A program made the position numbers and the translations under genes. A DNA stretch of 39,345 nt, taken from positions 1 through 39,345 of IMG/VR virus record IMGVR_UViG_3300033143_003062; one strand, given 5' to 3'. The notes beneath the pieces were generated by a model that was given only the letters and a program-made list of their open reading frames with translations, was not told the origin of the DNA and ran no database searches. Positions 12,155 through 35,585 of the stretch are shown one piece after another (the stretch's first letter is position 1; the number at the start of each line of letters is the position of its first letter). The DNA is from a virus.

Positions 12155-12440
12155 TGGTCTTAACTTATATCAGATAAGAAAAGTATTAGACGTGATATTC
12201 GATGGGACGCCTCAAACCTTTTTTTATATAAAACAAATACAAGCATTTTACGTTAAGAAGAAAAGTAATCACAGAGAGCATCAAATTTACCTGTGGTGTA
12301 TAAGAAATAAAGTTACCGGTCAAAAATTCGTAGATTTCTTTGATCATCAAGGTTTTTTGAATGGTCTCAATTACATTGTAAATAAACTCAATGGAAACAA
12401 GAATCATCTGAAAAATATAAATTTAGAAGAAGCATTATAA
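12135..12440 (+). CDS. Hypothetical protein in lysis cassette
   Basis: The 101-residue basic protein has an AGGAAT ribosome site seven bases before the ATG. It has mixed helix and strand and one cysteine. I see no signal peptide or known motif. Its end overlaps the start of the NlpC/P60 gene (TAATG), so the two are probably made together. Confidence 0.5.
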   Translation: MQSQMNNGLNLYQIRKVLDVIFDGTPQTFFYIKQIQAFYVKKKSNHREHQIYLWCIRNKVTGQKFVDFFDHQGFLNGLNYIVNKLNGNKNHLKNINLEEAL

Positions 12441-12811
12441 TGAGAATGTGGGAGTACGGAAAAAGTTTTATCGGAACTCCTTACAGCTGGGGCGCAAACG
12501 ATATTGCGATTGCTGTTGATTGTAGCGCGTTTGTATGTGAGCTATTGAGAATGAAAGGCGTTATAGGAAAAAAAGATTATAACTCAAGAATGCTATTCGA
12601 TAAAATAAGAAAGCCATTTGTTAAGCCATGTGAAGATTCTGTTTTATTTTTTGGAAGAGATTTTCAAAACATAACCCATGTTGCAGTTGCTATCGACAGT
12701 GAGCACTTAATTGAAGCATCTGGCGAGGGTCGTAAAGAGACCGACAAGGGCTTTGTAAGAATAAGAAAAATTAATCATAGGCGTGATTTATTGTGCGCCA
12801 TAAGCGTATAA
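12440..12811 (+). CDS. NlpC/P60-type cell wall hydrolase (endolysin)
   Basis: The 123-residue protein has the compact papain-like NlpC/P60 fold. GTPYSWG at residues ~12-18 leads to the active-site Cys in DCSAFVCELL (Cys28), and the catalytic His lies in ITHVAVAID (about residue 80). A third polar residue probably lies in the LIEASGEG segment (~93-100). Such enzymes cut D-Glu/diaminopimelate or related peptide bonds of peptidoglycan. There is no signal peptide, so export would need the nearby holin. It is short compared with modular endolysins: one catalytic domain and no wall-binding domain, as usual for phages of Gram-negative hosts. Confidence 0.85.
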   Translation: MRMWEYGKSFIGTPYSWGANDIAIAVDCSAFVCELLRMKGVIGKKDYNSRMLFDKIRKPFVKPCEDSVLFFGRDFQNITHVAVAIDSEHLIEASGEGRKETDKGFVRIRKINHRRDLLCAISV

Positions 12812-12818
12812 GGTAAAA

Positions 12819-13439
12819 ATGAAAATATTAATATTGATAAGTGCAGCGTTTTTAATATCATGCTCAAGTAATGACAAGAAAATTATTCAAAATAAAAACT
12901 ATTATATAAAATACGGCAAAAAAAATGCAGGTCATAGACTAGGCGGTGATGTCGTTAAGGGAATAAGACAAAACACTATCGAGGTTTTAAAAGCAGCACT
13001 CGATGAAAAAATTTATAATCATAAAAGTTTTAAATATTGGGAATTTGACGTTAGAGAAACGAAAGATAAAACTTTAATTGTGCATCATGACCGCAGCTTA
13101 ATTAAGAAAAAGAAAGTTTACATCGATAAACTTACTTACAATGAAATTGTCAAAATAAAGCCTGACGTGCCTCTCTACGATGCCGTTTTAAGCATGTTAA
13201 ACAAAAGATTCAAGGGCAAAGTCGCAGTTGAAATAAAAAGTCTTATAAGCGATTCTGGTAGATCGAAACTAATTCAGCAAGTTGATAATTATAACACTAT
13301 CAGCAACTTGAAAATAAAATATCTCGCGTTTCCTAAAAAATTCAAAAAAAGTTTTCCTAAAAAAAGTCGTAAAGATTGGTGTAAAAAATTAAAGAACGTC
13401 ATGAGAGCAAGAATGCATCGAATAAATTTATGTAAATGA
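12819..13439 (+). CDS. GDPD-family lipoprotein (glycerophosphodiester phosphodiesterase-like)
   Basis: The 206-residue protein has a lipoprotein signal with lipobox ISCSS (Cys15). It then shows the GDPD metal and acid-base residues in order: HR in GHRLGG (~42), EFD in YWEFDVRETKD (~78-80), HHD (~91-93) and a Glu in VAVEIKS (~145). The usual ENT is QNT here. The family cleaves glycerophosphodiesters to glycerol-3-phosphate and an alcohol. The protein is about 40 residues shorter than typical GDPDs, so the last barrel strands may be missing. It closes the lysis operon and probably sits in a membrane facing the periplasm. Confidence 0.75.
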   Translation: MKILILISAAFLISCSSNDKKIIQNKNYYIKYGKKNAGHRLGGDVVKGIRQNTIEVLKAALDEKIYNHKSFKYWEFDVRETKDKTLIVHHDRSLIKKKKVYIDKLTYNEIVKIKPDVPLYDAVLSMLNKRFKGKVAVEIKSLISDSGRSKLIQQVDNYNTISNLKIKYLAFPKKFKKSFPKKSRKDWCKKLKNVMRARMHRINLCK

Positions 13440-18657: not shown

Positions 18658-19260
18658 ATGGAGAAGATAATGATTAAGATAACAGCGGATCACGAGAGAA
18701 TTGAGAAAGTCGGCAGTTGTTACGTCTGGAATGGTGACATGATTATTGATGACGATTTGATGATAGACCTTGATGTTTTACTGATAATCAAAGGCAATCA
18801 AATAATCGAAGGCTATCAAATAGTCGAAGGCTATCAAATAGTCGAAGGCTATCAAATAGTCAAAGGCAATCAAACAGTCGAAGGCAATCAAATAGTCAAA
18901 GGCAATCAAATAGTCAAAGGCAATCAAACAGTCAAAGGCAATCAAATAGTCGAAGGCAATCAAACAGCCAAAGGCAATCAAATAATCGAAGGCTATCAAA
19001 TAGTCGAAGGCGATCAAACAGTCGAAGGCTATCAAGAGGTTACGTTTAAAAGTATTGGTAAGTGCGTATGGAAAGTATTCTATTCCAAAGCAGAAATAAA
19101 AATAGGATGCAAAACTAAAACTACTGAAAACTGGATTAAATGGCTCAACGGTAAGGAAGAATACGACCACAACAGAGAATCAAATGTATTCAAGCAAATA
19201 TATAAAACATTTCTGATTGCTAAGTATGCGCAGGAGTTGGATTACAAAGGAGAAGAATAA
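18658..19260 (+). CDS. Hexapeptide-repeat (beta-solenoid-like) protein
   Basis: The 200-residue protein has an N-terminal part (residues 1-42), 14 consecutive six-residue units of the form I/T-V/I-E/K-G-N/Y-Q (residues 43-126), and a basic C-terminal domain (127-200) with two cysteines and helices. The regular hydrophobic pair every six residues with Gly-Asn/Tyr turns suggests a parallel beta-helix of 18 residues (three units) per turn. GGAGAAG inside its first codons makes a start at ATG 18670 also possible. Function unknown; such solenoids can bind carbohydrate or mimic DNA. Confidence 0.7.
   Translation: MEKIMIKITADHERIEKVGSCYVWNGDMIIDDDLMIDLDVLLIIKGNQIIEGYQIVEGYQIVEGYQIVKGNQTVEGNQIVKGNQIVKGNQTVKGNQIVEGNQTAKGNQIIEGYQIVEGDQTVEGYQEVTFKSIGKCVWKVFYSKAEIKIGCKTKTTENWIKWLNGKEEYDHNRESNVFKQIYKTFLIAKYAQELDYKGEE
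18784..19035 (+). repeat. 14 tandem 18-bp repeats coding for hexapeptides
   Basis: Fourteen units in perfect register with consensus ATAGTCGAAGGCTATCAA. Units vary mainly at ATA/ACA, GTC/ATC, GAA/AAA and TAT/AAT. Several neighbouring units are identical, which suggests recent duplication. The complementary strand is open throughout only because the repeat lacks stops in that frame. Confidence 0.95.
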
Positions 19261-21690: not shown

Positions 21691-21784
21691 ACTACACGCA
21701 CAAACCTTACAAGACCTAAAAACTTTACAATTTAACGCTAAATAATCTACTCTTGAATTATTGCTACTTCTAATTAAGGAAAAT

Positions 21785-22390
21785 ATGAAAGTAATAATCA
21801 AGTGTACTGGTTCGTTTTCACTGCCGCTAAAAAGCATTCAAAAAATGCAAGGCGATCTCAAAGAACTGTCAGAAGAAAACTACGAAAAATTAAAAAACAA
21901 TATTGTCAAAAATGGTTTTTGTTTCCCGTTTTTTATTTGGGAGAAAAAAACGAAGACCAAAACAGACAACATGTTACTCGACGGTCATCAAAGATTGACT
22001 GCATTAATCGTCATGTCAGAAGAAAAAATCGAGATGCCAGAAAAATTTCCGTGCATAAAAGTAATGGCAAAAACAAAAAAACAAGCAATGAGCTTAATTC
22101 TTGCCGCAAGTTCAAATTACGGAACCATGACAAAACTCGGACTCGAAAGTTTTATGGACACGTCCGGAATTACTTTTGAAGAAGTTGTTAGTGATAATTC
22201 GTTCGATGCTATTGATTTTAATTCAATGAATAACGATTATGAAAATAACGATGATACAAGCAGCAACGATAATCAAATCAACGATGAAGAAAAATTTTTA
22301 ATTGTTTTAGAATGCAAAAACGAGTCAAATCAAAATGAATTATTTGAAGAATTTCAAACAAGGGAATTAAATTGCAAACTTATGTCGTAA
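21785..22390 (+). CDS. ParB/sulfiredoxin-fold protein
   Basis: I start at 21785, preceded by AAGGA. The 201-residue protein has the ParB-like N-terminal fold: SIQKMQGDLKELSEENYEKL (~15-35), a strand with CFPFFIWEKK, then MLLDGHQRLTAL (~63-74), where the G-H-Q-R box is the family hallmark. ParB-fold proteins are CTPases, nucleases or DNA-binding adaptors. Residues ~135-165 are an Asn/Asp-rich linker and the last ~40 form a small domain. It overlaps the ABC-GNAT gene by 19 bases, so the two probably work together. Confidence 0.85.
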   Translation: MKVIIKCTGSFSLPLKSIQKMQGDLKELSEENYEKLKNNIVKNGFCFPFFIWEKKTKTKTDNMLLDGHQRLTALIVMSEEKIEMPEKFPCIKVMAKTKKQAMSLILAASSNYGTMTKLGLESFMDTSGITFEEVVSDNSFDAIDFNSMNNDYENNDDTSSNDNQINDEEKFLIVLECKNESNQNELFEEFQTRELNCKLMS

Positions 22391-23499
22391 ATTTAGAATC
22401 AGAAGTATCAAAAACATTTCGTTGCCAAAAAGCTGCGGATTCATTGGATATCGACGTTGAAAAAAAATCCAAGCATTTGTTCGAAGTCATTGCCGATTTA
22501 AAAACTGAATACAATATAGGTTTAATAGTTGGTGCTTCCGGTTCAGGCAAAACGACTTTGGCTAAACAAATATTCGGTGATGATTGCTTCAAAGAATACA
22601 TTGATATGAAAAAACCAATAATAGAACAATTGCCAAAAAGTTTAGAATACAACGATTGTCAAAAAATATTATCAGGAGTTGGTTTAACGTCTGTTCCTTG
22701 TTGGATAAGGTCAGCCTACACGCTTTCAAACGGTCAAAAAGCTCGCGCAGAGATGGCTTTGGCCTGTTATAATTCAAAAGATGATGTTATTGTCATAGAT
22801 GAATTTACTTCTGTTGTAGATAGAACGGTCGCTAAAATCATGAGTCATTCAATTCAAAAATTTGCAAGAAAAGAAAAAAAAACCATCGTTTTGTGCGCAT
22901 GCCATTATGATATAATGGAATGGTTGAATCCTGATTGGGTGATAGATTGCAATAAACAAAAATATATTGATCGGAGGTCACTTCGGCAAAATTTTGAAAG
23001 AAAAGAAAAACTCAATTTCACAATCAAAGAAATCGACAGAAAAACATGGAAATATTTTAGCAAATATCATTATTTAAGTGAACGATTGCCTGGTGGCAAA
23101 TTGTATTTATACGGTTTATTTGAAGGTGAAAATCAAATAGGTTTTCAATGTTTTGCTAATTATGTTCCAAAAAGAAAAACAACTAAAACATGGATATATC
23201 ATTCTAACAGAACGGTTATTCATCCCGATTATGCAGGCATGGGATTGGGTATACTATTGATAAATGAAACCAGCGAGCTTATGTATAAAAAAGAAAATAT
23301 TAAAGTTATGGCGAAATTTTCATCGACTCCTATTTATAAATCTATGATAAAACAAAACTGTTGGTCATTGCAAAACATTGAAAGAAACATGGTTATTTTC
23401 AAAATGGGCGGTGCATGTAAGCCGAAAGGTAAAGGTGGATACAGGCATAAAATAAAAACTTATTCTTTTTTATATACAGGCAAAAACAATGACAACTAA
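22372..23499 (+). CDS. ABC-type ATPase fused to a GNAT acetyltransferase domain (COG2401-like)
   Basis: It starts at TTG 22372 with AAGGGA six bases upstream. Residues 1-215 are an ABC ATPase: Walker A GASGSGKTT (54-62), signature LSNGQKARAEMA (~119-130), Walker B VIVIDEFTS (~139-147) and switch His in CACHYD. Residues ~220-375 are a GNAT domain with HYLSERLPGGKLYLYGLF, then IGFQCFANY, then the coenzyme-A-binding HPDYAGMGLG (~284-293). No membrane domain is present, so it is not a transporter. The GNAT start resembles Mom-type DNA-modifying enzymes. With the ParB protein before it and terminase after it, DNA modification or anti-restriction is a reasonable inference. Confidence 0.8.
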   Translation: MQTYVVNLESEVSKTFRCQKAADSLDIDVEKKSKHLFEVIADLKTEYNIGLIVGASGSGKTTLAKQIFGDDCFKEYIDMKKPIIEQLPKSLEYNDCQKILSGVGLTSVPCWIRSAYTLSNGQKARAEMALACYNSKDDVIVIDEFTSVVDRTVAKIMSHSIQKFARKEKKTIVLCACHYDIMEWLNPDWVIDCNKQKYIDRRSLRQNFERKEKLNFTIKEIDRKTWKYFSKYHYLSERLPGGKLYLYGLFEGENQIGFQCFANYVPKRKTTKTWIYHSNRTVIHPDYAGMGLGILLINETSELMYKKENIKVMAKFSSTPIYKSMIKQNCWSLQNIERNMVIFKMGGACKPKGKGGYRHKIKTYSFLYTGKNNDN

Positions 23500-24314: not shown

Positions 24315-26984
24315 ATGCAACTATACTCGTCAGAAGAAATTGAAAAAGAAATATTAAAACGAAAACTTGAAGGCGATCTTTTAGAATTTCTTTTGTGGGT
24401 ATTTAAATACATATACCGTCGACCATTTATAGTTAATTGGCATCATGAAACATTGTGCCGCGTTTTAATGGATATACATTCAGGGAAACTTCAACACGTT
24501 ATAATTAATATACCTCCCAGATATAGCAAAACGGAAATTGTTGTAAAAATGTTTGTAGCTTGGTGTTACGCTAAAGATTACGATTGCGAGTTTTTACATT
24601 TAGCTTATTCAGATGATTTAGCATTGGCGAATTCTTCCGCAATGAAACTAATAATTGAAAGCGTGGAATTTCAAGAATTATGGCCATTAGAATTTCAAAA
24701 AGATTCTACGGCAAAAAAGAAATGGAAAACAATTGCAGGCGGCGAAATGTCGGCAGCAGCATCGGGCGGAAGTGTTACTGGTTTTGGTAGCGGCAAGATA
24801 GGCGCGAAAACATTTAAAGGCGCATTGATAATAGATGACCCATTAAAACCAGAAGATTCAAATTCTCCAACGCTATTAAACAAAATCAACAACAGATTTC
24901 CACAAACTATAAAATCAAGATTAAATGATAGGTCAACACCAATGATTGTTATCATGCAAAGGCTAAATGAAAATGACCCTGCAGGATTTTTATTAAACGG
25001 AGGAACGGAATTAAAATTCACTCACATAAATTTACCGGCAATAAATGAGGATGGACCTAGTGACTACGACCCGAGAAATAAAGGTGATATTTTATGGCCA
25101 TTTAAGCATACAGCAGAAGAATTAGAAAAAATGAGGGTGTCCGATGCAATGACGTTTGCAGGACAGTATCAGCAAAGGCCAGCACCGGCGGAAGGAAATA
25201 TTTTTAGGTGGTTTTATTTTTATAAAGAACTTCCAAAAACTATTATACAAAAAAATCATTCGTGGGATTTTACATTTAAAAAATCAAAACATTCTGATTA
25301 TGTTGTTGGACAAAACTGGGGTTCAACTAAATCTGGAGACCACTACTTGATTGATCTAGTAAGAGCTAAGATGAGTTTCACAGAATCACTCGAGTCGATA
25401 AGGCATTTTTGTAAAAAACACCCTGACTATAGAAGCGTTTTAATAGAAGCAAAGGCAAACGGCGAAGCAATTATTGATTCTGTTAGAAATGAAGTTAAGA
25501 ATGTTATAGCAATAAATCCAACTGAATCGAAGGAGGAACGCGCGGAAGCCGTTGCGCCAATGTTTCAAGCTCAAAGAATATTTTTGCCACACCCATCGAT
25601 TGCACCTTGGGTTAATGATATGATTAACGAGATGAAGGTTTTCCCGAATGGGAAACACGATGATTGTCATCCTTATTCGTCAATGATACAAACACCTCAC
25701 GGGAAAATAAAAATAGGTAAAATCAAAGTAGGTCAGAAAGTATTGTCATGGAGCGGAAGCGAGATAAAAATAGGTAGAGTGTATAAATCAAGAAGCACGG
25801 GCATAAAAAAAATCGTTAAAGTAAAAATCGAAAATACGATAATAGAAATGACAGAATCTCATCCCGTCTTAACTCAGAGAGGTTGGGTATGTGCAGGAAT
25901 GTTGAAAGAAAAGGACTGTATTGTAAAAGTAGTCAAGTCGAATTTGACGGCCTTAAATGGACAAGAAAAAAAAGCGGGGATTATCAATGCACAACAAGAA
26001 AAAACGGTAAAAGATACTGACTTCATCGATATGTGTTTGAAAAATTTTCAAAAAATGGAATACAAAAAGACATGTCTATACATCATAAAGATCATGACAA
26101 AAACAATAACTTGCTCTCAAATCTCGAACAACTCACAACGTCGGAACATACCATCAAGCATGGAATATTTAAATCGGGAATGGTTGACAGAAGCGACAGG
26201 CAGCAAGAAATCACATGCGAACTTGCTTCACTCGCGAAGAAAGGATTGTATTGCGGAAAAAAGAAAAGATGGCTTCATAGAGAAAATATTAAGTGCAAAA
26301 CTTGTAACAAAGAATTTAGTCCACACAAAAACGCCAAATTTAATACAATCTATTGCAGCGACAGTTGCAGAAGTAAAGCAACAAATAAATACAATGAAGA
26401 ATATATCAAAAAAGGTTATGGGTGCATTTGGTGCAAAAAATCATTTCAATACGATAAAAATATATATAGAAAATTTTGCTCATCAATCTGTTGCGACAAG
26501 TATAGATATGCAAACAAAAAAAACACAAAAGAATGCTCAGTATGCAAACGTGAGTTTCAAGCATACAGAGGTCACGCATACGAGTTTTGTCAAAAATGCA
26601 ATATCTATAAAAGAAAATGCATTGAATGCGAATCTTTATTCAAAACAAAACGAAGTGGAAGAAAAATGTATTGCAGTAGTGCGTGCAATCAAAGATTCAA
26701 TAGGCGTAAAAATAAACAAGGTTCCAATTGAATCAAGTAATGCAATTTTTGTAAAAATTGATTCTGTTGAATATTCAAGAGAAGAAGAATGTTTTGCGAT
26801 TGACGTGGAAAGCTATCATAATTATTTATTAAATGATTACGTTGTTCATAACTGCGTTGATGCAGCGACGCAGTATCTAAACCACATGCAAAACTCAAAA
26901 GTCGGCTCATTTGGCGGCATGAAAAACGCAAATGAAAACAAATCTTTCAAAAATGCCGAAAAGCGTTTAAACTTTAGAAGCTAG
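24315..26984 (+). CDS. Terminase large subunit containing an intein
   Basis: The 889-residue precursor is 493 residues once the intein (residues 451-846) is spliced out. The ATPase half has Walker A-type PPRYSKTE (67-74) and Walker B GALIIDDPLK (~168-177). The nuclease half has WDFTFKKSKHSDY (~317, first metal Asp), EAKANG (~379-384) and PNGKHDD (444-450), rejoined after splicing to CVDAATQYL. The protein pumps DNA into the prohead and cuts it. The insertion directly follows the conserved HDD of the nuclease site, so activity should depend on splicing. The start abuts the previous stop. All three motif groups are intact. Confidence 0.93.
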   Translation: MQLYSSEEIEKEILKRKLEGDLLEFLLWVFKYIYRRPFIVNWHHETLCRVLMDIHSGKLQHVIINIPPRYSKTEIVVKMFVAWCYAKDYDCEFLHLAYSDDLALANSSAMKLIIESVEFQELWPLEFQKDSTAKKKWKTIAGGEMSAAASGGSVTGFGSGKIGAKTFKGALIIDDPLKPEDSNSPTLLNKINNRFPQTIKSRLNDRSTPMIVIMQRLNENDPAGFLLNGGTELKFTHINLPAINEDGPSDYDPRNKGDILWPFKHTAEELEKMRVSDAMTFAGQYQQRPAPAEGNIFRWFYFYKELPKTIIQKNHSWDFTFKKSKHSDYVVGQNWGSTKSGDHYLIDLVRAKMSFTESLESIRHFCKKHPDYRSVLIEAKANGEAIIDSVRNEVKNVIAINPTESKEERAEAVAPMFQAQRIFLPHPSIAPWVNDMINEMKVFPNGKHDDCHPYSSMIQTPHGKIKIGKIKVGQKVLSWSGSEIKIGRVYKSRSTGIKKIVKVKIENTIIEMTESHPVLTQRGWVCAGMLKEKDCIVKVVKSNLTALNGQEKKAGIINAQQEKTVKDTDFIDMCLKNFQKMEYKKTCLYIIKIMTKTITCSQISNNSQRRNIPSSMEYLNREWLTEATGSKKSHANLLHSRRKDCIAEKRKDGFIEKILSAKLVTKNLVHTKTPNLIQSIAATVAEVKQQINTMKNISKKVMGAFGAKNHFNTIKIYIENFAHQSVATSIDMQTKKTQKNAQYANVSFKHTEVTHTSFVKNAISIKENALNANLYSKQNEVEEKCIAVVRAIKDSIGVKINKVPIESSNAIFVKIDSVEYSREEECFAIDVESYHNYLLNDYVVHNCVDAATQYLNHMQNSKVGSFGGMKNANENKSFKNAEKRLNFRS
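25937..26020 (+). other. Conserved N-terminal HNH coding frame upstream of an in-frame TGA
   Basis: In the -1 frame this stretch reads VEFDGLKWTRKKSGDYQC and continues TTRKNGKRY, then TGA (26018-26020), then LHRYVFEKF. That is the usual beginning of this type of HNH homing endonuclease (G-x-K-W/Y-x-R-K-x-G-Y, then L-H-R-Y-V-x-E). So the original gene began about 95 bases before the longest present ORF and is now cut by a stop, possibly a single CGA-to-TGA change. An eight-A run (25966-25973) holds an A_AAA_AAA slip site that would lead from the terminase frame into this frame. Confidence 0.65.
26033..26731 (+). CDS. HNH homing endonuclease with zinc ribbons, nested out of frame inside the terminase intein
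   Basis: The longest start is GTG 26033 (232 residues); ATG 26072 is an alternative. Neither has a good ribosome site. The HNH core is SIHHKDHDKNNNLLSNLEQL (residues ~15-34) followed by TSEHTIKH. Then come four cysteine ribbons of the form C-x2-C-x3-F ... C-x3-C (CKTCNKEF/YCSDSC, CIWCKKSF/FCSSIC, CSVCKREF/FCQKC, CIECESLF/YCSSAC), which give DNA-binding specificity in related enzymes. The gene lies wholly inside the intein in the -1 frame and ends about nine bases before intein block F begins. It should cut intein-less terminase genes to spread the intein. Confidence 0.88.
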   Translation: MFEKFSKNGIQKDMSIHHKDHDKNNNLLSNLEQLTTSEHTIKHGIFKSGMVDRSDRQQEITCELASLAKKGLYCGKKKRWLHRENIKCKTCNKEFSPHKNAKFNTIYCSDSCRSKATNKYNEEYIKKGYGCIWCKKSFQYDKNIYRKFCSSICCDKYRYANKKNTKECSVCKREFQAYRGHAYEFCQKCNIYKRKCIECESLFKTKRSGRKMYCSSACNQRFNRRKNKQGSN

Positions 26985-34369: not shown

Positions 34370-34998
34370 TGATAACTATAAAGCTAGAATACGATGATTG
34401 GAAAACTAATGTTGATAATAAAAGTTTAGATCATTTCTGTTATATGCAAAACGGTAGATATGAGATTATCGGCGTTGATGGTCAGATTATATTTGCTCAT
34501 AGATTAGATCAAGACGATGAAATGCACTACATGGCAAACTACATGCCGACGTCTAACATGAAAATGGGAAACTATTATTCAAGAGAACCTTTTGCGACCA
34601 AAGTTCTTAAAGATGGTTCAAAATTATTCAGAAGAAAGCACGGGGTTAAAACTACAATCGCTGCCAACGCCGAGGAAGATATAATATTTACCGTTCCTTA
34701 TTCACAGGCAAAAATAAATAAACTAGAAGTAATCGACGCAAATGCGCTAGACAGAATAGATCTATTGGTAAAATCGCCAATAGACGTTCCAACGGCTACG
34801 GCATACGGAATGCCTGCTGATTACTTATTGAATCAGTTCGGGTTCGATGTTGTTGTCTCTTCATTGCTGTATTCTGATAAGTCAGATTATGATGCAGATG
34901 TTTATTATGGAATGCAAATTATAGCAAGATATAAAAACGATACGAACGAAGCCAAAGATGTTGGATTGAATTTAATTTATCATGAGGTTGTTGCATGA
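34369..34998 (+). CDS. Hypothetical virion protein
   Basis: The 209-residue protein has GAGGGA before the ATG and overlaps both neighbours. It opens with a domain rich in Asp and aromatic residues (FCYMQNGRYEIIGVDGQII), followed by strands typical of a receptor-binding or neck protein. No catalytic residues stand out. It precedes the permuted NlpC/P60 gene and may form a unit with it. Confidence 0.5.
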   Translation: MITIKLEYDDWKTNVDNKSLDHFCYMQNGRYEIIGVDGQIIFAHRLDQDDEMHYMANYMPTSNMKMGNYYSREPFATKVLKDGSKLFRRKHGVKTTIAANAEEDIIFTVPYSQAKINKLEVIDANALDRIDLLVKSPIDVPTATAYGMPADYLLNQFGFDVVVSSLLYSDKSDYDADVYYGMQIIARYKNDTNEAKDVGLNLIYHEVVA

Positions 34999-35585
34999 AT
35001 AAGATTTACAACTTTATTTTAAAGGCATTTAAGCCAGTCCTGGAATTTATAAGTGGAAAACACGCACCATATACGCATAAAAAAATAACAGGGAAGCAAT
35101 ACTACCAATGGCGAGATAAAATCTCAGTAGGGACGGTCATCCTAACGACAACCAGGGGAGAGCTTACAAATATATTTAACCCTGTCAAAATAAAGCATTC
35201 TGGAATTTATGTTGGGAAAATTTTAAATGATGATATTTGTTATATAGCAGAATCAACAAGAAATGGAGTCATATTGACTGATCTTGTTACATTTTTAACA
35301 ACAAAAGATATCGCTATCGGGTGCAAGCCTAAGTTTATAGTTACAGATAATCAAAAATTTGGAATACAGGAAAAAGCATTGAACTACATAGGTAAAAAAT
35401 ACGACTATTATTTTGAAAAAAATAAAGATGAAATGTATTGTTTTGAATTATGTTTTCATTGCTTAGGAAATGCTCATTTAAAATCAAGAGAAATAGTAAA
35501 AGGCAAATGTATTTTTGATCATAATACTTTTCTAGATGACTTACATTTTAATATAATATTCGACTCAAGGAGCGAGAATGGATAG
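34995..35585 (+). CDS. YiiX-like permuted NlpC/P60 (papain-like) hydrolase
   Basis: The 196-residue protein has the circularly permuted order: the His comes first, in IKHSGIYVGK (His68), then a strand with YIAESTRNGV, then NYIGKKYDYYFEKN, and the Cys comes later in EMYCFELCF (Cys ~149). That is the layout of YiiX-type papain-like enzymes that cut peptide or amide bonds. The order His, Glu/Asn, Cys is conserved. Unlike the lysis-cassette enzyme it sits among virion genes, so it may be carried in the particle to open the wall at entry. No signal peptide. Confidence 0.75.
   Translation: MNKIYNFILKAFKPVLEFISGKHAPYTHKKITGKQYYQWRDKISVGTVILTTTRGELTNIFNPVKIKHSGIYVGKILNDDICYIAESTRNGVILTDLVTFLTTKDIAIGCKPKFIVTDNQKFGIQEKALNYIGKKYDYYFEKNKDEMYCFELCFHCLGNAHLKSREIVKGKCIFDHNTFLDDLHFNIIFDSRSENG

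Follow-up and report, generated by a model that had tools for sequence, protein, structure and literature searches.

Canonical inteins of the PI-SceI kind carry an in-frame endonuclease domain between their splicing blocks. A metagenomic virus record of 39,345 bp, analyzed here over its whole length (the window), raises the question of whether an intein can instead keep its nuclease as a separate gene in another reading frame. The initial annotation of this DNA had described an intein in the terminase large subunit (TerL) with an HNH homing endonuclease encoded out of frame over the same bases. We examined both frames in the window and in related loci, how the HNH protein would be made, and whether the copy in the window is still complete.

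A complete intein in the terminase frame

The TerL ORF of the window matched the PHROG terminase large subunit (2e-106) and Terminase_6C (1.4e-14). Its frame had been described as open across the insert and as holding Cys1, the T-x-x-H motif, the terminal His-Asn and Cys+1. Both statements were borne out: the frame is stop-free over 889 codons, and all of these standard residues of a Cys1-type intein are present (Table 1), with Cys1 encoded by TGT at 25665 and the terminal H-N by 26847-26852. The intein interrupts the HDD/xxDA motif of the TerL nuclease domain, where the slash marks the insertion site. In a sister phage (L118), 87% identical over the N-extein, the site is empty and reads NDD/QCDALTQYL, compared with HDD/intein/CVDAATQYL in the window; intein-less TerL homologues with empty sites were found in L118 and in L001-L006.

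The window intein matched Pfam Intein_splicing (PF14890) above the cut-off (E 7.3e-11) and the TIGR01445 N-terminal splicing region at 6.9e-4, which is under the curated cut-off of that model. In the AlphaFold model, ten-residue blocks averaged a pLDDT of 94-98 over residues 1-90 and of 96-97 over residues 361-396, while the middle was of low confidence, with the segments 110-184 and 186-224 below 50. The solved folds nearest to the model were inteins (Hint fold), and gp41-1, a phage-type split intein, was the closest to the splicing domain in sequence. Among 45 nested inteins, Cys1, the block-B His (H66) and the final Asn were invariant and T63 was nearly so. Judged by these residues, splicing in the window phage appears intact and should survive.

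Several other ORFs of the window had recognizable or unusual features. The ORF at 18658-19260 (+) consists of near-identical short repeats (QIVEGYQIVEGNQ...), with the minus strand also open at 18778-19170, and a Pfam search of this repeat ORF gave no match. A GmrSD_N-like (ParB/DUF262-type) ORF at 21761-22390 precedes a single ORF at 22372-23499 (+) that combines an ABC/AAA-type ATPase part with a GNAT acetyltransferase part. An NlpC/P60 protein (12440-12811, +), a GDPD-like phosphodiesterase (12819-13439, +) and a C92 permuted papain-like amidase (34995-35585, +) are also encoded.

Table 1. Positions of the host gene, the intein and the overlapping HNH frame in the window.
Feature	Position	Strand	Basis or remark
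TerL ORF (N-extein, intein and C-extein), frame 0	24315-26984	+	889 aa, stop-free
Complete intein, 396 codons, Cys1 to terminal His-Asn	25665-26852	+	TerL residues 451-846
Cys+1 codon TGC, first codon of the C-extein	26853-26855	+	Just beyond the interval initially annotated
Hint splicing domain, N-terminal part, residues 1-95, with block B T63-x-x-H66	25665-25949	+	AlphaFold pLDDT, conservation
Hint splicing domain, C-terminal part, residues 355-396, ending in His-Asn	26727-26852	+	AlphaFold pLDDT, conservation
Intein linker in the TerL frame, bases shared with the HNH gene	25950-26726	+	Low-confidence structure
HNH ORF as initially annotated, GTG start, 232 aa	26033-26731	+	Without the near-invariant L-H segment
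HNH homing endonuclease frame (-1), with lesions	25931-26731	+	Alignment to L198, L199, L219 and L009
HNH catalytic core HHKDHDKNNN...NLE...H...H, -1 frame	26081-26161	+	HNH_3 match, invariant columns
Four zinc-ribbon-like cysteine pairs of the HNH protein, -1 frame	26294-26689	+	Translation; third and fourth positions approximate
In-frame TGA, HNH frame	26018-26020	+	TGG (Trp) in L198, L199, L219 and L009
AGT at the position of the relatives' start ATG, HNH frame	25931-25933	+	Alignment to L198, L199, L219 and L009
Possible alternative upstream ATG, HNH frame, with GAGG upstream	25889-25891	+	Meets the TGA after 43 codons

An HNH gene in the -1 frame

The -1 frame over the linker encodes an HNH core and four zinc ribbons, as had been proposed. 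The product matched HNH_3 (PF13392) at 1.2e-6, above its cut-off, and the PHROG HNH endonuclease at 1.5e-16; the cysteine pairs are of the CxxC type, with an A2L zinc ribbon match of 1.3e-3. In the core, H47, H48, D50, N55, N60 and H69 are invariant and H73 is near-invariant. I-HmuI was the nearest and the sole significant solved match of the HNH protein.

The openness of the TerL frame over these bases was compared with two expectations. When the window HNH was coded with the codon usage of the genome, a mean of 6.0 stops fell in the TerL frame and none of 3000 draws was free of them; shuffling of synonymous codons gave a mean of 3.2 stops (P = 0.010). The open TerL frame over the window HNH is not due to chance.

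The nested layout is shared by many phages

A protein search with the HNH sequence returned Vibrio phages in which the TerL intein is split and the HNH gene lies between the halves, and Acinetobacter phage Highwayman, which has a continuous TerL intein with an unannotated HNH nested at -1. The same nested -1 layout was present in Tetrasphaera phage TJE1, in Rhodobacteraceae phage LS06 (a complete record) and in a faecal phage contig; Highwayman and TJE1 are isolate phages. A profile search of IMG/VR gave 80 loci, and a scan of genome_contigs gave 9, of which L107 was nested and L108 had the N-block only. Loci were classed by HMMs for the N-block, the C-block and the HNH over all three forward frames. 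The first classification contained 60 continuous inteins with the HNH at -1 (59 once a duplicate of the window was removed), 20 split inteins and 17 free-standing HNH genes. After a second search the set comprised 113 TerL inteins with an HNH nested out of frame, or 88 distinct ones when merged at 90% DNA identity. The -1 offset was kept in 87 of the 88, and the remaining one (L200) had the HNH in the other out-of-frame register. An HNH in the intein frame was not encountered among the classified loci of either search. In L200 (534-3710) the register of the TerL frame relative to the HNH holds 0 stops, compared with 8 in the usual one.

The host proteins of the first set of loci matched terminase families. 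Most nested inteins occupy the D-(H/D)...DA motif of the nuclease domain, whereas four (L208, L238, L240 and L242) lie in the ATPase domain, and at least two TerL sites therefore carry the nested architecture. No close homologue of the window intein was found in viral_contigs, and those found among phages were distant; its nearest relatives were L198, L199 and L219, and no close relative had an intact HNH. Across the sequences compared, the out-of-frame HNH nested in a TerL intein is a conserved architecture, kept by many unrelated phages.

This recurrence bears on the possibility that two compensating indels in assembly or sequencing displaced the HNH domain of an ordinary intein from the intein frame. 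The window does come from a metagenomic virus record and has eight consecutive A close to the 5' end of the overlap, but the same offset in 87 distinct inteins, including those of the isolates Highwayman and TJE1 and of the complete LS06 record, rules out an assembly artefact, and a relative with an in-frame HNH did not appear among the classified loci. We give this explanation practically no credence.

Two observations concern the annotation of such loci. An apparently free-standing HNH gene with zero stops (L039) lies in an open frame that ends in a terminase-like tail, with the N-block missing. In L011, TerL residues 594-740, the TerL-frame linker overlapping the HNH, matched PHROG phrog_35162 (unknown function), and this match recurred in 27 of 50 nested TerL ORFs; phrog_35162 may be the shadow-frame translation of the HNH gene.

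Constraint on the two frames

None of the 59 nested HNH genes had a stop in the TerL register, where shuffles of their own codons predicted 1.8, whereas the split relatives averaged 9.3 stops per HNH gene (shuffles 8.9) and the free-standing ones 7.7 (shuffles 7.4); because an open frame is part of what defines the continuous class, the contrast is informative mainly against these non-overlapping relatives. It is relevant to a further explanation, in which the element is a split intein by origin, the TerL frame is open incidentally and splicing would take place in trans between the halves. Vibrio phages and others do have split inteins whose halves flank the same HNH, and the window HNH groups with the Vibrio one. 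Relatives with split or free-standing genes nevertheless average 8-9 stops in a register where nested genes have zero, and the window frame was open in 0 of 3000 draws with genome codon usage, which makes this origin highly improbable in our judgement.

In the overlap of L041 and L048, differences amounted to 0.19, 0.15 and 0.43 at HNH codon positions 1, 2 and 3, and identity was 0.73 for the HNH and 0.51 for the TerL frame, in a comparison aligned on the HNH proteins that favours the HNH somewhat. In pairs of nested relatives, differences in the overlap track the HNH codons, while the flanking splicing block, 93% identical, tracks the TerL codons. The central idea of the initial annotation, that splicing and homing are kept in separate frames and the intein frame need only stay open, was upheld.

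Expression of the HNH protein

Nearly all nested HNH genes had a start codon of their own where the N-terminus is expected. In 36 of 59, a candidate start was accompanied by a Shine-Dalgarno match of four or more bases, compared with 13.4 at random positions (200 trials, maximum 26). The other out-of-frame register of the HNH genes held a mean of 16.6-20.9 stops in all three main classes; as that register is full of stops, the near-universal -1 offset can be understood without frameshifting.

Programmed -1 frameshifting would, in place of internal initiation, yield a fusion of IntN and HNH. The -1 offset of the HNH fits such a route, and slippery heptamers occurred in 15 of the 59 nested loci where 6.5 were expected. 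That number is too small for frameshifting to be favoured as the common route: 44 of 59 loci had no slippery heptamer within the possible region, start codons and Shine-Dalgarno matches are present as described, stop content alone accounts for the offset, and L200 uses the other register. We regard frameshifting as very unlikely and internal initiation as the preferred reading.

The HNH copy of the window is damaged

The HNH ORF initially annotated begins at a GTG downstream of two lesions (Table 1). Upstream of this GTG (26033), the -1 frame encodes a homologous N-terminus, GLKWTRKKSGDYQCTTRKNGKRY, which the TGA at 26018 parts from LHRYVFEKF. The reading frame of the HNH gene in the window phage is thus not intact, with the TGA present and the start codon of its four closest relatives (L198, L199, L219 and the Vibrio phage HNH of L009) gone. 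The window's was the only one of 59 nested HNH genes truncated at the N-terminus. The near-invariant L-H adjoins the TGA, and any product initiated downstream would lose it. Past the TGA, 237 codons are open, and the damage therefore looks recent. An alternative code in which TGA specifies Trp was considered and rejected: TGA is an ordinary terminator in the window genome, where it closes 13 of the 40 long open stretches, and the genome yielded no tRNA.

The HNH might have kept its activity if translation began downstream (at GTG 26033 or ATG 26072) or if the TGA were read through as Trp. The 237 open codons would suit either route, and reading the TGA through would give back the very Trp that is conserved. 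The TGA is followed by C, a leaky stop context, so that low-level readthrough may occur. Against activity, a downstream start would drop an invariant Tyr together with the Leu-His segment, a truncation unique to the window, the start codon used by the relatives has also been lost, and the genome uses TGA as a regular stop. An active HNH is unlikely here, and the endonuclease of the window is, from its reading frame, very probably inactive. The expectation that this HNH drives the spread of the intein accordingly does not hold for a copy with TGG changed to TGA and the start ATG to AGT. As splicing is apparently intact while the start was lost and a stop gained, the window probably retains only the splicing function of a mobile nested intein, as a remnant at one stage of a homing cycle.

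Mobility and origin

The terL gene of Highwayman is 99% identical to the intein-less terL of Acba_21. Over the 1215 bp upstream of the intein, all 8 differences fall within 163 bp of the junction, and over the 1000 bp downstream all 7 fall within 13 bp, the change of the Cys+1 codon included. In the aligned sequences this is the pattern of a co-conversion tract, the mark of recent homing. The intein DNA of Highwayman was found in one phage record, and its terL DNA matched 98 records.

The window HNH and that of the Vibrio split intein form a pair in the HNH tree (94/94, just below the star threshold of the tool). The nested label requires 12 changes on this tree, at least 5 of them on well-supported branches, and nesting has therefore been gained or lost repeatedly. 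The same HNH family also occurs free-standing beside terL in several phages. The simplest history would be that HNH genes first stood alone beside terL and later moved into inteins, accompanied by splits and fusions.

Two individual loci show further arrangements. In Brochothrix phage BL3 (L025, 1918-2604) the intein is split and annotated as terminase and gp3; its HNH core is deleted and the zinc ribbons are left in the -1 frame. This relic would represent a late stage, at which the intein is split and the ribbons alone remain of the HNH. Vibrio phage 1.245.O (L009, 646-3522) has a second intein, with an in-frame LAGLIDADG domain, in the N-terminal ATPase part of TerL, beside the split intein with a free HNH in the same TerL.

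A probable two-gene intein

We consider it highly probable that the locus derives from a mobile TerL intein made of two overlapping genes, with a separate HNH in the -1 frame, and that the window holds a copy which is probably a splicing-only remnant. Frame 0 would encode TerL together with a Hint splicing domain in which a long linker connects the N- and C-terminal parts. As the conserved residues and the fold suggest, the translated intein would excise itself and rejoin TerL. From the same linker bases, an internal start in the -1 frame would give a homing endonuclease as a protein of its own, an I-HmuI-like HNH enzyme with zinc ribbons. This enzyme would cut intein-less terL, leading to the whole intein being copied in, as its family, its position and the co-conversion tract of a relative indicate. 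Because the linker sequence hardly matters to splicing, its bases would answer to two demands: the HNH frame must be intact and the TerL frame free of stops. The -1 register would prevail, the other out-of-frame register of HNH genes being filled with stops.

Like PI-SceI-kind inteins, the element has a Hint splicing domain, a homing endonuclease between the splicing blocks and mobility by homing, but its nuclease is a separate gene at -1 and not a domain of the intein protein. Fractured genes, in which split inteins accompany a free-standing endonuclease, were reportedly described by Dassa and co-workers in 2009. In split inteins of the gp41-1 type the endonuclease gene lies between the two intein halves, a layout shared by the Vibrio relatives; the window differs in being one continuous ORF with both halves in frame and the nuclease overlapping out of frame.

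That no intein with a free out-of-frame HNH had been described was an overstatement of novelty, since a precedent exists in the ShiLan domain of mycobacteriophage DNA methylases, an open phage insertion with its HNH out of frame, though one without splicing motifs (Arsenault, Gosselin and Gogarten, 2025; PMC11855218). There too the insertion is open in the frame of the host gene and a zinc-finger HNH lies in another frame, as in the window, and a patchy distribution suggests homing (PMC11855218). The host-frame product of ShiLan lacks intein motifs, and splicing is not expected of it (PMC11855218), whereas the window has a full Hint domain, and the host gene is a terminase instead of a DNA methylase. 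For overlapping reading frames in actinobacteriophages, the ShiLan paper cites a preprint on non-canonical actinobacteriophage inteins (Gosselin, Arsenault and Gogarten, 2025), which, as far as that citation indicates, may already describe inteins with an out-of-frame endonuclease. Free-standing HNH homing endonucleases and collaborative homing have been reviewed (PMC10448857); these genes belong to the same HNH family and adjoin terL in several phages, but they lie outside a splicing element, whereas the nested HNH lies inside one. Novelty is thus limited by ShiLan, by split inteins with free-standing endonucleases and, as far as it is cited, by the 2025 preprint. The broader reading, to which we give a little short of even confidence, is that of a widespread, previously undescribed class of phage inteins, with splicing and homing proteins in overlapping frames, that arose by repeated entry of free-standing HNH genes from beside terL into inteins, in the one register where stops can be avoided, and that can interconvert with split inteins.

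Nested nucleases are missed by annotation: in Highwayman, TJE1 and LS06 the HNH region carries only the annotation of a terminase large subunit. The nested set provides many natural replicates on which the constraint on overlapping genes, the homing cycle and the emergence of split inteins can be tested. The gene for the mobility of an intein can nest inside the gene for its splicing and yet keep a separate frame, which suggests a possible route, in either direction, between a continuous intein and a split one with a free nuclease.
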